Source: Hwanghaeella grinnelliae
GTDB taxonomy: Bacteria; Pseudomonadota; Alphaproteobacteria; UBA8366; Aestuariispiraceae
NCBI RefSeq assembly: GCF_004005845.1
Contig: NZ_SADE01000001.1
Span: 496,001 to 560,000 of the forward strand
Length of the DNA: 64,000 nt
Direction of reading: 5' to 3'
Every line of letters begins with the position of its first letter. Positions within the stretch are counted from its first letter, which is position 1. Positions 2,179 to 64,000 of this stretch are shown here, one piece after another. A model generated the notes under the pieces. It did not search any database, had not been told where the DNA came from, and saw nothing but the letters and a program-made list of their open reading frames with translations. Both the position numbers and the translations under genes were made by a program.

Positions 2179-3360
2179 TCATGTAGGGGATGCGGCTTGG
2201 GGTGCTTCATTCTCGTTCCCTTCCGCTTCCAGGTCTTCCGTGCGCATGGCATGCCATTCCTTGATGACGGCATTCGCCGTGATCAGGATCGGCACAGCCA
2301 GCAACGCGCCGGCCACGCCCCATAGCCAAGTCCAGGCCAGCATGGACAGAAAGACGGATATGGGGTGCAAGGTGAACCGACGCCCCAATATGGTGGGGGA
2401 AATGAAATATCCCTCACCTGCGGTAATCGCAGCATAGGTCAAAGGCGGCGCCAGGATAGAGAGCCAATCATGGAACGTCAGCAAGGCGGCGATGCCGATG
2501 GCGCCGGTTGTTACCACCGGGCCCAGATAGGGGATGAAGCCCAGCACGAATGCCATCGCCCCCCATAAGAGCGCGTTCGGCATGCCCCAGGCCGCCATGG
2601 CGGCGGCGGTCAGGCAGCCGACGGTGAATTGGATCAGCGCGACCGTGGCCAGGTAATGGGCTGCCTTGGTCTGCACCGATATGAACAGTTGCGACAGTTG
2701 ACGGCGCCGGTCCTGCCGCGCCACGCGCCTCAAAATGTCGGTCACCGCCCGGCGGCCGCCGGATAACAGGAAAAACAGCAGCGCCAGGGTGATGCCGGTC
2801 TGTGCGATGGTTTGCCAAGTATAGGAGAGCAACAGGTCCGACAGGCTGGTATCGCCGACGACGACGGATCGTTCGTCCTTGGGCGAGACCCGTGCCAGCT
2901 CATTGATCTTTTCGGACGCTTCCTTGGCTTCCTCGATGGTTTCCCGGAACGGCCAGACGCGATACTCGATTTCCCGCACCGCGCTGGGGATGCGCGAAAT
3001 CCAGTCCGATGCCGGTTCGGCCAGTAAGTGGAAGGCAACGAACAGCGAGGATAGCAGGCCGAACAGCACCACGGCCGCGCCCAACCAATCCGGCAACCCG
3101 ACGCGGCGCAGCCCGATGATCACCGGGCTCAACACCAGCGAGAGATAGACGGCAAACAGGATCGGCAGAACCAATTCCGCCGCGAAATACAGCGTATAGG
3201 CCGCCGCGAGCCCAAACAGTCCATAGACCGCCTTGCGCTGCCAATCATTTATGTCCTGGGCATTGACTTCCTTTTGCCCAGGCGCCGCCGAAGGTGGCTG
3301 CTGCGGTTGTATGTCCGGCCCGGCACCATCCGTGCCGGCGCTCTCCCCAGTTGGCTGCAC
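2179..3360 (-). CDS. AI-2E family (PerM-type) membrane transporter
   Basis: A 393-residue integral membrane protein with a Pro/Gln-rich cytoplasmic N-terminus of about 40 residues. Hydrophobic segments lie at about 45-110, a soluble loop at about 115-180, and a C-terminal membrane block contains GFIPYLGP and PTILGRR. These motifs mark the AI-2E/UPF0118 family, whose members export autoinducer-2 in some species or act in sodium/proton antiport. The start is GTG at 3360, supported by AGGAG seven bases upstream. It stands alone, with no quorum-sensing genes nearby, so the transported compound is unknown. Confidence 0.87.
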   Translation of the reverse strand: MQPTGESAGTDGAGPDIQPQQPPSAAPGQKEVNAQDINDWQRKAVYGLFGLAAAYTLYFAAELVLPILFAVYLSLVLSPVIIGLRRVGLPDWLGAAVVLFGLLSSLFVAFHLLAEPASDWISRIPSAVREIEYRVWPFRETIEEAKEASEKINELARVSPKDERSVVVGDTSLSDLLLSYTWQTIAQTGITLALLFFLLSGGRRAVTDILRRVARQDRRRQLSQLFISVQTKAAHYLATVALIQFTVGCLTAAAMAAWGMPNALLWGAMAFVLGFIPYLGPVVTTGAIGIAALLTFHDWLSILAPPLTYAAITAGEGYFISPTILGRRFTLHPISVFLSMLAWTWLWGVAGALLAVPILITANAVIKEWHAMRTEDLEAEGNENEAPQAASPT

Positions 3361-3460
3361 CGCCGTCTCCTAGAAAATTCATGCTCATATGAGAAACGCA
3401 TGAACCGGGTGGGGGTTGCGGCGGCGGCCCGGCGGAACCGCCGGACGGGGGGAGGGACTG

Positions 3461-4558
3461 TCATCCCGCGGACTGTCGGTCCCGTGCCGGCTTTTTACGG
3501 CGTTTGAGATGCAGCCATAACCCGCTGATCACGAACCCCGCCGGTGTCAGCGCCAGGACGATCCAGAACACCCGGACGACCGGGCCGGCGAAGGTGCCCA
3601 CATGGATCTGATATTTCATATGCCACAGCCATGTGGCCAGGGTGACGTCTCGTCCGTCCTGGACATGCAGGACGCGCGCTGGTTGGTCGCCGATCCAGAC
3701 CTTCGTCGGCATGGTCTGCCCTTCGGCGAAGTAGGTCATGATGGCGGGGCCTCCCTTCCTGTCCGGCGGGCGGATCGTGCGCAGATCCGCATTGGCCGTG
3801 GCGGGGACGGCGGCGGCGAGTGAGAGGGCCGCGCGCAGATCCTCAAGCGGGGCGAGCCCCTCGAATTTGGGCGGATTTTCCTGCGCGACCTCGCTGAAGG
3901 TGAGGGTTTCCAGAACCCATTGCATTGGATTGTGCCAATACAAGGCCATCCCGGTATAGGCGACGGTGAGCAACAGAAGCGCGGTCAACACGCCGGTAAG
4001 CTGATGCAGGCGAAGCACCGTCACCACCGTGCTGCGCCCTTTCGGCACGACCAGCCGCTTCAACCGGTTCGGCAGTTTGAGCCAGAGCCACAGTCCGATG
4101 CAAATCTCGAACGCCATGAGAAGCGCGACGACGGAAACGACATGCCGCGTCCAACGCGCGGGTTTTCCTTCCGCCAAATATCGCCGGTGCAGCGCTGTCA
4201 CCCACCCCTGAAAGGTCTCGTTCGGCCTGAAATGAACCAGTATATCCCCGGTATAGGGATCGATATTGACGACACCCTTGCCGCCTGAAAGCCATGCGGT
4301 GTGAGGAAGATTTTCCGCTTCGGCAAGGGTCAGTGCCCAAACCGGAAGGTCCGGGCGCTGCTCTTGGACGCGGTCCAATATCTCGGGCGGCGGCAACGGC
4401 GTCCCGGATGGGGTGACACTCCACCCGCCGGGGGCAAAGGCGCGCTGCAATTCCGGACCGTAGACCAGAATCGCACCGGTGACGCTCGCCAGGATCAGCG
4501 GCACCATCAATACAAGCGTGGTGTAGAAATGTATGGCTTTTATCGATGAATACCGCAT
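3461..4558 (-). CDS. PepSY-associated TM helix protein (iron-uptake reductase type)
   Basis: A 365-residue protein with an N-terminal membrane helix (residues 10-32), a periplasmic PepSY region, and further helices near 140-160, 190-210 and 330-350. Conserved histidines occur at the helix ends (HFYT, HRRYLAEG, HQLTG, WHMKYQIHVG). The family (PiuB and related) is found next to TonB-dependent receptors and is thought to reduce or process iron-chelates at the inner membrane. Its ATG lies 34 bases after the receptor stop on the same strand, so the two probably form one iron-regulated operon. Confidence 0.88.
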   Translation of the reverse strand: MRYSSIKAIHFYTTLVLMVPLILASVTGAILVYGPELQRAFAPGGWSVTPSGTPLPPPEILDRVQEQRPDLPVWALTLAEAENLPHTAWLSGGKGVVNIDPYTGDILVHFRPNETFQGWVTALHRRYLAEGKPARWTRHVVSVVALLMAFEICIGLWLWLKLPNRLKRLVVPKGRSTVVTVLRLHQLTGVLTALLLLTVAYTGMALYWHNPMQWVLETLTFSEVAQENPPKFEGLAPLEDLRAALSLAAAVPATANADLRTIRPPDRKGGPAIMTYFAEGQTMPTKVWIGDQPARVLHVQDGRDVTLATWLWHMKYQIHVGTFAGPVVRVFWIVLALTPAGFVISGLWLHLKRRKKPARDRQSAG

Positions 4559-4592
4559 GACCTGATCGAACCCTTATCCGCTTGCGGCGGCC

Positions 4593-6554
4593 CTAGAACG
4601 TGTAATCCATGCCGAGCCAGACGACCGTGCCCAGTTTGGCGTCGTCGTCGAAGGTTTGGCCGTCGATGGTTTGTCCGAAATCACGTTCGTCCAGCAGGTT
4701 TTCGGCCCGCGCGCGCAGGGTCAGCTTGTCGTTGACCGCATAGCTGGTGCCGATATCCAAACGCGTGAAGCCGGACCGTTCGGTTACCGAGCCGTCGATA
4801 TTGTAGGATTCGAACCCGGTCGTGACATACGCGGCGCCCCAAATCCCCCATTTCTCGGTCGCCCGGTAGTCCAGGCGCAAACTGGCCTGATGTTCCGGCA
4901 CCGGCACGCCATTGCTCCCGAAAAAGACATTGCCGTTGGCGTTCGTGCCGTCCGCCCGCGTCGCTTCAACGTCCAGGATGTGCATGTAGGAGGCGGACAC
5001 CGAAACACTGTCGGTGAGCTGGTCGAATGCCTCAACCTCGATCCCTGTTTGGTCCACCTCCACATTCTGGATGGCGCCGCCGTTTCGGCGCGGGACGTTG
5101 TCCTGGACGATGTTGTACAGGGCGACATCGATATACCCGTTGTGGATGCCCTGATTGATGCCGATTTCCATGGTTTTCGATTCAACGACTTCGTCTTGCG
5201 CGCCGTTCGGGTTCAGGGCGTCCGTGCCGAAGTTTCCGTACTTCTCGAAGAAGCGATTGAAACCGGTCGCGTAGGAAACGCGCAGGCGCGTCTCATCCAA
5301 CACGCTGTAGGATGCGCCGGCCTGATAGGACAGGATGGCGTCATCCTGCAGGTTGTCGGCCTGTTCCACGCCGTTCAGGATGATTTCGTTGTTCAGCCAG
5401 GTGTAACGCAGACCCGCCGTGAGGGTGAGGTTGTCGTTGAACGTGAAGGCGTTCATGGACTTCACGGCATAGTCGTCGAACGAATTGTCGAACGTCTTGT
5501 CGCGTTCATTGAATGTGTGTTTGTACTCCACCCCGACCGTGCCGTCGTAGTCGATCGTGTCGGAAAGGGGCAGCGACAGATTGTGGTCCGCGAACAGGAT
5601 CCGGTTGTCGATGGCGCGGTTCCGGTTCCGGGCCGGCCAGCGCGACCGTGTATTCGTGATGGCGGCGCCGGCTTGCACGCTGTTGATATCGCTCAGCGTG
5701 TGGTCGACCGTCGCCGCGCCCATCCACGATTCCGTGGTGATTTTATTCAGGTCCCCGTTCCGGAAGATATCGGGACGGCTACGGTCGTAGATCGCCAAAA
5801 GCTCGGCGCGCGTGTCTTCGCTGAAATTGAAGCCGAGTTTTCCGACGGTGCCCACAATGTACTGTTTGTCCAGGCTGCTCGGGTCGCCGTCATAGCTGCC
5901 CAGGAAGCCGCTGGCCGCGGCATAATAATCCCAGTCCTCCGTGCTGTCCGCGACTTCGCCTTGCACGATGCCTTCTCGCGCGGTGCTGGCGTCGATACTG
6001 ATCGCCTGGTGGTCCTCGTAGCCGCGGCCGGATTTGATGTTGGTTTGGATGACCCCGCCGTCGCTGCCGTCGCCGTACTGAACGGCGCGCCCGCCCTTTA
6101 GGACGTCGATCTGCTCAACCGCGATGCTTGGCACCAGCGTGTTGTTGTATCCGCCGCCTTCCTGACCCTGGAACTTCAGCGCCGGCAGGCCGTCGATCGA
6201 TTCCGATGCCCCGAAATCGCCGAAGGTACGAACCTTCTTGCTGCTGCCGAAGCGGTCGCCTGCCTCCGGTGAGTTGATCAATCCGCTTGCGTTGTAGCGC
6301 AGCGCATCCGTCGTGTTGACGGGGTTCAGGTTCTGCAGAACCGATCCGCCGACGCCGGATGAAGACCGGCTGCTGTTATAGGCCCTGTCGACCCCTTGCC
6401 GGATCGCCTGTGACGGATGAACGGTCCTGCCCTCGATCACGACCGGGGACAGGGTGAATTCCTCCGACCAAGCCGGTGTTCCGGTGATGGATGCGGTAGC
6501 GACCGATGTGGCCAATGTAAGCTTCCAGCCTAAAGTGCTTATTGCACGACGCAT
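4593..6554 (-). CDS. TonB-dependent outer-membrane receptor
   Basis: A 653-residue receptor. A signal peptide (MRRAISTLGW then a hydrophobic stretch ending near SEE) is followed by a TonB-box-like LSPVVIEG, a plug domain at about residues 40-165, and a 22-strand barrel ending in the aromatic MDYTF terminus. The plug contains VEQIDVLKGGRAVQYGDGS. I chose the ATG at 6554 because AGGGGA lies just upstream; an ATG at 6572 would start before that ribosome site. The ligand is probably a ferric siderophore or heme, given the PepSY partner and Fur-box-like sites upstream. No heme-specific FRAP/NPNL signature was seen, so heme is less favoured. Confidence 0.9.
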   Translation of the reverse strand: MRRAISTLGWKLTLATSVATASITGTPAWSEEFTLSPVVIEGRTVHPSQAIRQGVDRAYNSSRSSSGVGGSVLQNLNPVNTTDALRYNASGLINSPEAGDRFGSSKKVRTFGDFGASESIDGLPALKFQGQEGGGYNNTLVPSIAVEQIDVLKGGRAVQYGDGSDGGVIQTNIKSGRGYEDHQAISIDASTAREGIVQGEVADSTEDWDYYAAASGFLGSYDGDPSSLDKQYIVGTVGKLGFNFSEDTRAELLAIYDRSRPDIFRNGDLNKITTESWMGAATVDHTLSDINSVQAGAAITNTRSRWPARNRNRAIDNRILFADHNLSLPLSDTIDYDGTVGVEYKHTFNERDKTFDNSFDDYAVKSMNAFTFNDNLTLTAGLRYTWLNNEIILNGVEQADNLQDDAILSYQAGASYSVLDETRLRVSYATGFNRFFEKYGNFGTDALNPNGAQDEVVESKTMEIGINQGIHNGYIDVALYNIVQDNVPRRNGGAIQNVEVDQTGIEVEAFDQLTDSVSVSASYMHILDVEATRADGTNANGNVFFGSNGVPVPEHQASLRLDYRATEKWGIWGAAYVTTGFESYNIDGSVTERSGFTRLDIGTSYAVNDKLTLRARAENLLDERDFGQTIDGQTFDDDAKLGTVVWLGMDYTF

Positions 6555-59084: not shown

Positions 59085-59471
59085 ATGGCGGAAACCGACG
59101 ATACGCGCGCCGCGATGGGGGAAAAGACCCGCCGTCGCGTGCTTGGGGATGCCCATGTGGACCGTGCGTCGGGGAATGCCACCCCGTTCGATACGCCTTT
59201 CCAGGACTTCATCACACAGGGCGCTTGGGGGTCGGTCTGGTCGCGGGATCAGTTCACGTTCCGGGAGCGGAGCATCGTGACCATCGCCTTGCTGGCGGCC
59301 TTGGGGCATGACGAGGAATTGGCCATGCACATTCGGGCGACGGCAAATACCGGCGCAACGCCTGAAGACATCCGTGAAGCTTTGCTGCATGTCGCGGTCT
59401 ATGCGGGCGTGCCGGCCGCGAATTCCGCAATCAAGATCGCCAAGGCCACCTTGGCGGAGATGGACAAATAG
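59085..59471 (+). CDS. pcaC: 4-carboxymuconolactone decarboxylase
   Basis: A 128-residue enzyme of the carboxymuconolactone decarboxylase family that converts 4-carboxymuconolactone to 3-oxoadipate enol-lactone. It contains the typical FRERSIVTIALLAALGH and HIRATANTGATPEDIREAL segments and the motif ALLHVAVYAGVPAANSA. The neighbouring pcaHGB genes support this specific assignment over other family members. Confidence 0.92.
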   Translation: MAETDDTRAAMGEKTRRRVLGDAHVDRASGNATPFDTPFQDFITQGAWGSVWSRDQFTFRERSIVTIALLAALGHDEELAMHIRATANTGATPEDIREALLHVAVYAGVPAANSAIKIAKATLAEMDK

Positions 59472-59537: not shown

Positions 59538-60239
59538 ATGAGCGACTTCTCCGAATTCAGCGAACGGGATTGGCCCAGTCATCCGAAATACATCGATGAA
59601 GGCTATAAATCGACGACCTTCCGCGGTCCGACGAAACCATTGATTCCGTTGCAGCAAACCCTGTCTGAGGTGACCGGACCGGTTTACGGCCAAGACTCGG
59701 TCAGTGCGTTGGACAGTGACCTTACGATGAACGGGCGAAAGAACGGTGAACCGTTGGGTGAGCGGATGATCGTCACCGGCAAGGTTTTGGACGAATTCGG
59801 CCGCCCGGTGCCGAATACGCTGGTCGAAATTTGGCAGGCGAATTCGGCCGGCCGATATGTCGACCTGATGGACAAGCACGATGCGCCGCTGGACCCGAAT
59901 TTCTATGGCGGCGGGCGCGCCGTAACAGACAGCGACGGGAACTATCGGTTCAAGACAATCCGACCCGGCGCCTACCCCTGGGGCAACCACCCTAATGCGT
60001 GGCGCCCGGCCCATATTCATTTCTCGCTGTTCGGGGCAGGGATCGCCAGCCGCTTGGTCACCCAGATGTACTTCCCGGGCGACCCACTGATTCCGCTCGA
60101 TCCGATCGCCCAGGCGACCCCCAGTGTCGACCGCCTTGTTGCGGGTTTCTCGCTGGATGTGACCGAACCGGAATATGCATTGGGCTATGTTTTCGACATT
60201 GTTCTGCGCGGTCCGAAACAGACCCCGATGGAGGATTGA
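59538..60239 (+). CDS. pcaH: Protocatechuate 3,4-dioxygenase beta subunit
   Basis: A 233-residue intradiol dioxygenase subunit that carries the catalytic Fe(III). The ligand region GAYPWGNHPNAWRPAHIHFS supplies Tyr and His ligands, and NTLVEIWQANSAGRY is the family beta-sandwich motif. With PcaG it opens protocatechuate to 3-carboxy-cis,cis-muconate. A GGGAGGAAAG ribosome site precedes the ATG. Confidence 0.96.
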   Translation: MSDFSEFSERDWPSHPKYIDEGYKSTTFRGPTKPLIPLQQTLSEVTGPVYGQDSVSALDSDLTMNGRKNGEPLGERMIVTGKVLDEFGRPVPNTLVEIWQANSAGRYVDLMDKHDAPLDPNFYGGGRAVTDSDGNYRFKTIRPGAYPWGNHPNAWRPAHIHFSLFGAGIASRLVTQMYFPGDPLIPLDPIAQATPSVDRLVAGFSLDVTEPEYALGYVFDIVLRGPKQTPMED

Positions 60240-60242
60240 TTC

Positions 60243-60851
60243 ATGGCGAGCGACGAAAAGAAATTGCCGCAGACACCGTCCCAGACAGTCGGTCCTTTCT
60301 TCTCCTACGGGTTGGCGTCGGAACAGTACGGGTTTTCCGAACTGTCCAGTATTGCCGGGCGCGAGATAGCGGAAGAGGATGAGCCGGGTGAGCACATCAA
60401 GCTTGTCGGTATCATCTATGACGGTCAGGGCGCCCCGGTCTCGGACGCGTTGGTGGAAGTCTGGCAGGCGGATTCCCAGGGCCGTTTCGCGCACCCGACC
60501 GACGGGCGCCAGAAAAACACGCCTTTCACAGGCTTCGGCCGCTGCGGTACCCGCACGGATCCGAAGAACCGGTTCACCTTCGCCACGGTGAAGCCGGGGG
60601 CGGTAGGTGACGGGGAAGCGCCGCATATCAACTTGATCATCTTCATGCGCGGGCTGCTGTCCCATGCCTATACGCGGGTCTACTTCTCGGACGAGGAAAC
60701 GGCGAATGCTGCGGACCCAGTTCTGCAATCCGTGCCGGCGGACCGCCGGGATACCCTGATCGCCACGCGCGAGGAATCTTCCGCGGGTGTCGTTTATCGC
60801 TTCGATATTCATATGCAGGGCGACCAGGAAACCGTATTCTTCGACGTATGA
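60243..60851 (+). CDS. pcaG: Protocatechuate 3,4-dioxygenase alpha subunit
   Basis: A 202-residue non-iron-binding partner of PcaH. It begins SQTVGPFFSYGLA and has DALVEVWQADSQGRF, FATVKPGAVG and APHINLIIFMRGLLSHAYTR. It starts three bases after pcaH stops, so the two are translationally coupled in the usual HG order. Confidence 0.96.
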   Translation: MASDEKKLPQTPSQTVGPFFSYGLASEQYGFSELSSIAGREIAEEDEPGEHIKLVGIIYDGQGAPVSDALVEVWQADSQGRFAHPTDGRQKNTPFTGFGRCGTRTDPKNRFTFATVKPGAVGDGEAPHINLIIFMRGLLSHAYTRVYFSDEETANAADPVLQSVPADRRDTLIATREESSAGVVYRFDIHMQGDQETVFFDV

Positions 60852-60923: not shown

Positions 60924-61985
60924 ATGACGGTTTCGGCATTCGACCATCCCTGGTTTTCCGGCTTGTTCGGTGACGACACGGTTGCCGCGCTGTTTTCCGC
61001 CGATCGCACGGCTCACAGCTTTTTGCGGTTCGAACGCGCGCTGACCAAGGCCTTGGGCGATCACGGTGTGGTCGATAAGGCCGTTGCCGATGGTGTTCTA
61101 AACATGTTGGCCGGGTTCGCACCGGATATGGACGGTATCGCAGCCGGGATGGCCCGGGACGGCGTCCCTGGGCCGGCTTTCGTCAAACAGTTGAAACAGG
61201 CCGTCGGCGATGACCTGGCGGCAGGCGTTCACGTCGGGGCGACCAGCCAGGACCTGTCCGATACGGCCTTGGTCGAGACCCTCGGCGCCGTGAACAAGAT
61301 TTTGAGTGAACGTCTGCGCGAGGCCGTTTCGGCGCTTGAGGAATTGGAAGCACGTTTCGGCACCGCCACCCTGATGGGACGAACGCGGATGCAAGCCGCA
61401 CAACCGATTACGGTGGGCCATCGGGTGTCGACGTGGCGAGCGCCGTTGATCCGGCACCTTCAACGATTGGAAGATATCAACCCGGGCCTGCTGGTTCTGC
61501 AATTCAGCGGCGCCGTCGGAACGGGTGGAGCCTTGGGCGACAAACATGCCGATGTCGCCCGGCAAATGGCCGCCGAACTTGGCTTGGCCTATGCGCCGGA
61601 CTGCTGGCATACGACCCGTGATGCGATAGCCGACTATGCGAACTGGCTGTCCCTCGTCACCGGCAGCCTCGGCAAGATGGGTCAGGACATTTGCCTGATG
61701 GCCCAGCAAGGGCTGGACGAAGCCGTGCTCGGCGGGGGCGGTGGATCTTCCGCGATGCCGCACAAGCGGAACCCGGTAAAGGCCGAAGCCCTGGTGACCC
61801 TAGCGCGCTTTAACGCCGTCCAAGTCGGCGGCATGCATCAGGCCTTGGTCCATGAACAGGAACGATCCGGCGCCGCCTGGTCCCTGGAATGGTTGATCCT
61901 GCCGCAGATGACCGTCGCGGCGGCCGCTTCGCTCTCCACCGGCATTGCACTGTTGAAGAGTATAGAGCGGCTTGGCGATTCGTGA
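60924..61985 (+). CDS. pcaB: 3-carboxy-cis,cis-muconate cycloisomerase
   Basis: A 353-residue member of the fumarase/aspartase superfamily that makes 4-carboxymuconolactone from the ring-opened product. The signature GGGGSSAMPHKRNPVKAEAL lies near residue 275, with GATSQDLSDTAL near 107 and GRTRMQAAQPITVGHR near 153. Length and motifs suit the shorter PcaB forms. Order pcaC-pcaH-pcaG-pcaB. Confidence 0.95.
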   Translation: MTVSAFDHPWFSGLFGDDTVAALFSADRTAHSFLRFERALTKALGDHGVVDKAVADGVLNMLAGFAPDMDGIAAGMARDGVPGPAFVKQLKQAVGDDLAAGVHVGATSQDLSDTALVETLGAVNKILSERLREAVSALEELEARFGTATLMGRTRMQAAQPITVGHRVSTWRAPLIRHLQRLEDINPGLLVLQFSGAVGTGGALGDKHADVARQMAAELGLAYAPDCWHTTRDAIADYANWLSLVTGSLGKMGQDICLMAQQGLDEAVLGGGGGSSAMPHKRNPVKAEALVTLARFNAVQVGGMHQALVHEQERSGAAWSLEWLILPQMTVAAAASLSTGIALLKSIERLGDS

Positions 61986-62071: not shown

Positions 62072-63391
62072 ATGATGAGCCAGGAGCAGAACGACCTAAT
62101 CACCCGGATCGGCCCGGGTCGCGCGGCTGGCGACGTGCTGCGCCGCTATTGGATGCCTGCGGCGCTGACGAAGGAATTGGAAGCGAACCGTCCGGTCATT
62201 CCCGTTCGCTTGCTGGGCGAAAACCTGGCGCTGTTTCGGGATGGGGACAGCGGCAAGCTTGGCCTTGTCGCGCGGAACTGTCCGCATCGCGGCGCCGATA
62301 TGTGTTATGGGCGGGTTGAGAATGGCGGTATCCGCTGCGTGTTCCACGGCTGGCTGTATGGTGCCGACGGTCAATGCCTGGAACAGCCGGGCGAACCGGC
62401 GGATTCCACCATGCATGAGCGCCTAAAGATCAAGTCCTATCCGGTCGTAGAGAAGAACGGCATCGTCTGGGCCTATATGGGACCGGGCGAGGCACCGCCA
62501 TTCCCGGCCTTCGACTGTTTCGTCGCGCCGGACAGCCATGTATTCGCCTTCAAGGGGCTATGGGAATGCAATTGGCTGCAGGCGCTGGAAGTCGGTATCG
62601 ACCCTGTCCACGCGTCGTTCCTGCACCGTTTCCTGGAGGATGAGGACACAAAGGACAGCTACGGCAAGCAGTTCCGCAGTGCGGCTGCCGACACGAATGT
62701 GCCGCTGACTCAGTTGCTTCGGGAGAATCCTGCGCCGGAATTGAAGGTCGAGGAAACCGAATACGGTTTGCGCATCATCGCCTTGCGCGACTTGCCGGAC
62801 GGCAGGCGGCACGTCCGTGTCACCAACCAGGTGTTTCCCTGTGCGATCCATATTCCGATGTCGAACGAAATGACGATCACCCAGTGGCATGTGCCGATCG
62901 ACGATGAGACCTGCTATTGGTACGCGATGTTTACAAGTTTCGGGGAGCCGGTCGACAAACAGAAGATGTGGGACCAGCGCGTCAAGGAACACACCTTGCC
63001 GGACTACCGACCGAAACGGAACAAGAGCAACGAATACGGTTTCGATCCGGTCGAACAGGCAAACACGACCTATACCGGCATGGGCATGGATATCAACGTG
63101 CATGACCAATGGGCCTGTGAATCCATGGGGCCGATCCAGGACCGCACGGACGAACATTTGGCAACGAGCGACGCGGCCATTGTCCGCTATCGCCGAATGC
63201 TGCGTTCCGCCATCAAGAAATTGGCTGACAACGAGGGCGGCTTGCCGATGGATGTCACGGCCGAACAAGCCGCGCAGATCACCGGCCCGGTAGCGCTGGA
63301 CGCGATCGGTCCTCAGCAGGATTGGGAAAGTGTCTGGTTGGACCGTGATGCGGCCCGCCGTGAAGCCAGTCCCTGGAAAGCGGCATCTTGA
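62072..63391 (+). CDS. Rieske aromatic ring-hydroxylating oxygenase alpha subunit (phthalate-dioxygenase-like)
   Basis: A 439-residue Rieske non-heme iron oxygenase. The [2Fe-2S] ligands are C70 and H72 in NCPHRGADMC and C89 and H92 in RCVFHGW. The catalytic iron site is in EVGIDPVHASFLHRF near residue 172. The closest architecture is the phthalate 4,5-dioxygenase type, which would feed protocatechuate to the downstream pca enzymes. The substrate is not fixed, and no reductase gene is adjacent. Confidence 0.9.
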   Translation: MMSQEQNDLITRIGPGRAAGDVLRRYWMPAALTKELEANRPVIPVRLLGENLALFRDGDSGKLGLVARNCPHRGADMCYGRVENGGIRCVFHGWLYGADGQCLEQPGEPADSTMHERLKIKSYPVVEKNGIVWAYMGPGEAPPFPAFDCFVAPDSHVFAFKGLWECNWLQALEVGIDPVHASFLHRFLEDEDTKDSYGKQFRSAAADTNVPLTQLLRENPAPELKVEETEYGLRIIALRDLPDGRRHVRVTNQVFPCAIHIPMSNEMTITQWHVPIDDETCYWYAMFTSFGEPVDKQKMWDQRVKEHTLPDYRPKRNKSNEYGFDPVEQANTTYTGMGMDINVHDQWACESMGPIQDRTDEHLATSDAAIVRYRRMLRSAIKKLADNEGGLPMDVTAEQAAQITGPVALDAIGPQQDWESVWLDRDAARREASPWKAAS

Positions 63392-63439: not shown

Positions 63440-64000
63440 ATGGCTTCCGATCCCGAGGAAATGGCCGGGTTTGTCGAACGGTACGGCTTGCGGAGCGGGG
63501 ACGCCCAAAAGTCGGCAGAAGAGGTTGCTGCGCGGGTAAACGCTGATGGGTTGGAGGTCGTGCGCATCTCCTTCGTCGATCAGCACGGCATTTTGCGCGG
63601 TAAGACGATTACCGCCGACGGTCTGGGCTCCGCCTTCAAGAACGGCATCACCATGCCGTCCTCGCTGCTGCTGAAGGATACGTCGAACGCAACCGTCTTT
63701 CCGGTCTGGAGCGGGGATGCCGGCTTCGGCGCCGGACGGATGACCGGGGCGGAAGACATCGTGATGGTCCCCGATCCGACGACGTTCAAGGTTTTGCCCT
63801 GGTCCGCGCATACGGGTTGGATGCTGGCGGATCTTTACCATGCCGACGGCGCACCTGTTGCGATTTCCACGCGCGGCATTTTAAAGGATGCGGTCCAACG
63901 GCTCGACTCTGCCGGTTACCGGTTCACCGCGGGTCTTGAGCTCTAGTTTCATGTTCTTCGGGTAACCAATCCCCGGCTGGACCATTCCGATGGCGGCATG
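63440..64000 (+). pseudogene. Glutamine-synthetase-like gene with in-frame amber codon (3' end cut by window edge)
   Basis: From the ATG at 63440 the frame reads as the N-terminal beta-grasp and the beginning of the catalytic domain of a type I/III glutamine synthetase or related gamma-glutamyl ligase (VVRISFVDQHGILRGKT near residue 40, GSAFKNGITMPSSLLLKD near 64). At 63944-63946 a TAG interrupts. The frame then continues FHVLRVTNPRLDHSDGG to the window edge. The family reads GLExEFH here, so the amber replaces the metal-binding glutamate. The gene is disabled, has a read-through codon, or holds a sequencing error. Confidence 0.8.

Follow-up and report, generated by a model that had tools for sequence, protein, structure and literature searches.

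Glutamyl-organic-amine synthetases (GoaS) are represented by NpaA1 of 1-naphthylamine degradation (PDB 8WWU, 8WWV, 8X6Z), which, according to PMC11335346, joins glutamate to 1-naphthylamine ahead of a Rieske oxygenase and holds two Mn ions with Glu and His residues conserved with glutamine synthetase (GS). As described in the same paper, the NpaA1 gene is intact and is accompanied by a GAT-like enzyme, a two-component oxygenase and a reductase. A similar arrangement occurs in the aniline dioxygenase-type plasmid cluster of Comamonas testosteroni pTB30, which likewise combines a GS family protein with an aromatic ring-hydroxylating dioxygenase.

Here we analysed a GS-like gene of Hwanghaeella grinnelliae at the end of a 64,000-nucleotide stretch of DNA (the window, C1:496001-560000; the genome comprises 5.32 Mb on 7 contigs). 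As for NpaA1, a Rieske oxygenase is encoded close by, and NpaA1 has a Glu aligned at the position where the window gene carries a TAG codon. The partner in the window is a single LigXa-type oxygenase, unlike the two-component oxygenase that PMC11335346 describes. The pTB30 cluster differs in that its GS family protein shows 45.6% identity and lies beside a type 1 glutamine amidotransferase and alpha and beta oxygenase subunits.

The original prediction had called the gene glutamine-synthetase-like, a label that holds, the Gln-synt_C domain (PF00120) being present, and that could be sharpened: the product probably groups with the GoaS proteins. The best solved-structure match of the read-through protein is NpaA1 (8wwu, 4.7e-128, residues 11-484) with 430.9 bits, the next solved structure reaching 188.5, and none of the NCBIfam glutamine synthetase equivalogs matched the read-through protein at cut-off.

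An in-frame amber codon in the GS-like gene

The gene begins with an ATG at 63440 on the plus strand and runs off the window mid-gene. Read on into the chromosome past the window edge (L002, C1:555000-574000), its frame comprises 485 codons and its stop ends at L002:5898 (window-equivalent 64897), 897 bases beyond the edge. The upstream part (63440..63946) consists of the ATG and 167 further codons followed by TAG as codon 169 (63944..63946), and the post-TAG part starts at 63947..64000. As originally predicted, the amber codon is in frame with the ATG, and since it is the sole internal stop of the 485 codons, the frame is intact on both sides and the change of a single codon suffices to explain it. 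The DNA of the TAG site has a single match in the genome, i.e. one copy, at the locus.

With X placed at the stop, Gln-synt_C matched the read-through protein at 4e-80 over residues 143-481, spanning the TAG site, with 269.9 bits (cut-off 24; 271.1 in the genome scan), and Gln-synt_N scored 24.3 bits on the N-terminal domain, below its cut-off of 33.4. GC3 was 0.74 upstream and 0.72 downstream of the TAG (mean 0.726, sd 0.039, in coding-like ORFs of at least 200 aa). The codon score was 0.212 before and 0.166 after it (reference mean 0.226, sd 0.047), the latter value, about 1.3 sd under the mean, giving a weak hint of some decay if it is not normal variation. That the stop arose by chance in a frame without coding function can be ruled out, because the Gln-synt_C match spans the site, GC3 is coding-like on both sides and all 89 relatives described below align through it with a Glu.

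The intact Rieske oxygenase gene (62072..63391, plus strand, Rieske and LigXa_C domains) lies directly upstream. It is preceded, on the same strand, by genes for PcaC (59085-59471), PcaH (59538-60239), PcaG (60243-60851) and PcaB (60924-61985), and a LigM (vanillate/3-O-methylgallate demethylase)-like gene follows downstream of the Rieske/GS-like pair (L002:5979-7379), all five above their NCBIfam cut-offs. To judge from the neighbourhood, the pca genes may be tied to the GS-like gene. Farther downstream, a 1149-aa ORF on the minus strand (L002:11600-15049) appeared by eye to combine transporter-like, acyltransferase-like and AMP-ligase-like parts, and a search of L002 with Rfam gave zero matches.

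The replaced glutamate and the Rieske partner

The relatives used for comparison were the 9 closest non-own matches and the best 80 of 567 named-genome loci; the two sets may overlap, and because the 80 were taken by score, intact copies are favoured. In this set, where the full gene was sought following the original prediction, the codon aligned with the TAG is intact in 89 of 89, encoding Glu as GAG in 45 and as GAA in 44, and no match contains a stop. Within the genome, a genome-wide search found 10 Gln-synt_C copies, of which this one alone has a stop (1 TAG), and the other 9 all have Glu at the aligned position. The predicted family motif GLExEFH stood as far as its Glu is concerned, present in all 89 relatives (9 closest and best 80 of 567), but the FH is not constant, FT, FY and EW being found as well.

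In glutamine synthetase, the second Glu of GPExEFF is a metal ligand (E131 in Salmonella), and the Glu aligned with the TAG is presumably a metal-binding residue too. The original description of it as a metal-site Glu agrees with its invariance in relatives and paralogues and with its alignment to a Glu of NpaA1; metal ligation itself is suggested by the Salmonella residue and by the Glu and His ligands that PMC11335346 describes for NpaA1.

Relative G007 had been flagged with one TAG and was considered as sharing the amber codon. This TAG terminates the adjoining Rieske gene immediately before the ATG of the GS gene, the Rieske ORF ending at L066:2893 and the GS ORF starting at 2892; G007 has GAG at the aligned site and a match free of stops. 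A distant GS-family copy (33%, G010:C15:500944-502251) was flagged with one TGA.

A Rieske match was found in the flanks of 86 of the 89 relatives (exceptions L098, L131 and L151), the flanks covering about 1.5 kb for the 9 closest and at most 6 kb for the best 80 of 567; pca genes had no match in these same flanks. The pair of Rieske oxygenase and GS-like synthetase recurs over alpha-, beta- and gammaproteobacterial loci (L058-L066, L087-L166). Of the 13 other genomes searched within the family, 7 have a close orthologue (E 1e-130 or better), and the sole same-genus genome is without one.

The genome with the amber codon holds a second, stop-free Rieske and GS-like pair at C2:83-86 kb (L195, G000:C2:80000-92000, about 2395-5934, minus strand). 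Its GS-like gene, about 37-39% identical, adjoins two ORFs, one ring-hydroxylating oxygenase alpha-like and the other of 201 aa, again with no stops. Given this second pair, loss of the first GS-like gene might be tolerated.

Nonsense mutation, sequence error or read-through

We consider a very recent nonsense mutation that removed the enzyme to be the best reading and a probable one; the probabilities expressed here are judgements and were not computed. Compared with its relatives, the gene is disrupted in the way a pseudogene is, with one TAG against stops in none of the 89 (the best 80 of 567 favouring intact copies). It resembles an ordinary single-nonsense pseudogene in having a single in-frame stop and being intact elsewhere, and the sole notable difference is that the stop falls on a codon of the catalytic motif. 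Apart from the TAG, the gene shows no sign of decay: over 83 near-invariant columns (at least 97% conserved) it departs once, by F246L past the stop, and the relatives, each compared with the others, depart 0.75 times on average, 38 of the 89 (9 closest and best 80 of 567) having at least one departure. One departure against this mean suggests that there has been little time for decay, and thus the break would be either recent or not real.

If it is real, the sequence of events may be envisaged as follows. A GS-fold glutamyl-organic-amine synthetase would normally couple glutamate and an amine, after which the neighbouring Rieske oxygenase would attack the amine. With a very recent nonsense mutation at the Glu codon of the active-site motif, RF1 would end translation after 168 residues, leaving a stub that extends from the N-terminal domain into the start of the catalytic domain, and translation resuming at L002:4999, the next in-frame ATG, would give a product without the GLExE motif. 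Neither the stub nor the restart product would have a complete catalytic domain, and so both would be expected to be inactive and the enzyme lost.

That a single wrong base arose in sequencing or assembly, the gene being intact in the organism, is a possible but less likely explanation. At the locus itself it fits equally well: the gene shows no other decay, just as would be expected of an error, the neighbouring Rieske gene is open, the codon is intact in all 89 relatives (9 closest and best 80 of 567), and one wrong base in 5.3 Mb is quite possible. Its odds are lowered by the cleanness of the assembly, which has 7 contigs and is 97.85% complete and 0.02% contaminated. Moreover, stops are absent from the 9 other Gln-synt_C copies and from all control-family matches in the same genome (0/139 for ABC_tran, with 150 of 207 candidates scored, 0/7 for Ring_hydroxyl_A and 0/13 for Rieske); these 159 are matches and not separate genes, some of them lying in one gene, and their freedom from stops makes a generally error-ridden assembly unlikely.

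A read-through site, which had been offered as an option in the original prediction together with a search for a suppressor tRNA, appears very improbable. Under this explanation a suppressor tRNA, pyrrolysine or programmed read-through would yield the full-length protein, in keeping with the frame and the conserved residues that are kept past the stop. None of the 44 tRNA-model matches in the assembly (97.85% complete) has a CUA anticodon; ARAGORN called 42 of them, and the other 2 are truncated copies at contig ends with anticodon CAT by eye. Neither Ala-UGC nor Ile-GAU was called among the 44, which indicates that the tRNA set of the assembly is incomplete and that some tRNA gene could be missing, a point in favour of read-through. 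Contig C1 has the same 123 bases at both ends in inverted orientation (L055 1-123, L056 last 123), and these contain a truncated Met-type tRNA, probably marking a repeat where the assembly broke. For PylS, the genome gave no match at E 0.001 or better; the control search returned weak matches in 13 of 14 genomes, above cut-off in one. The RF1 gene is present (518.6 bits against a cut-off of 423.25).

TAG also behaves as an ordinary stop in a 478 kb sample, terminating 48 of 212 coding-like ORFs. There, coding-like sequence follows 2 of 65 TAG, 6 of 127 TGA and 7 of 93 TAA stops; both TAG cases look like gene boundaries (2 of 15 listed stops inspected). This both-sides scan speaks of other stops, the TAG at 63944 falling below its threshold with a 60-codon flank. 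Finally, no relative shares the TAG (0/89, 9 closest and best 80 of 567). The amber codon of the original prediction is confirmed and its interpretation was right for the most part; the gene is an ordinary single-stop gene, and no evidence of recoding was found.

It is similarly hard to credit a functional split gene whose two parts are made and then associate, for although the in-frame ATG at L002:4999 opens a 299-aa ORF, the downstream part is without the invariant GLExE motif, the catalytic domain would be divided and none of the 89 relatives (9 closest and best 80 of 567) is split. A regulated read-through site in the catalytic motif, at which a near-cognate tRNA would fill the metal site in a small share of full-length synthetase, perhaps limiting the accumulation of a toxic glutamyl-amide, is just as far-fetched.

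Possible substrate and consequences for the strain

We can guess that the substrate of the synthetase might be an amine convertible to protocatechuate, e.g. 4-aminobenzoate, because pca and ligM-like genes adjoin the pair. Within the portion of the literature covered, a search for a glutamyl route of 4-aminobenzoate returned nothing on point, and therefore the substrate idea remains a guess.

The analysis brought out, as a by-product, a conserved pair of Rieske and GS-like genes. If the base at the TAG is an error, the gene call is to be corrected. If the nonsense mutation is real, one amine-glutamylating enzyme should be missing from the strain and its Rieske partner retained, which makes a simple growth prediction.
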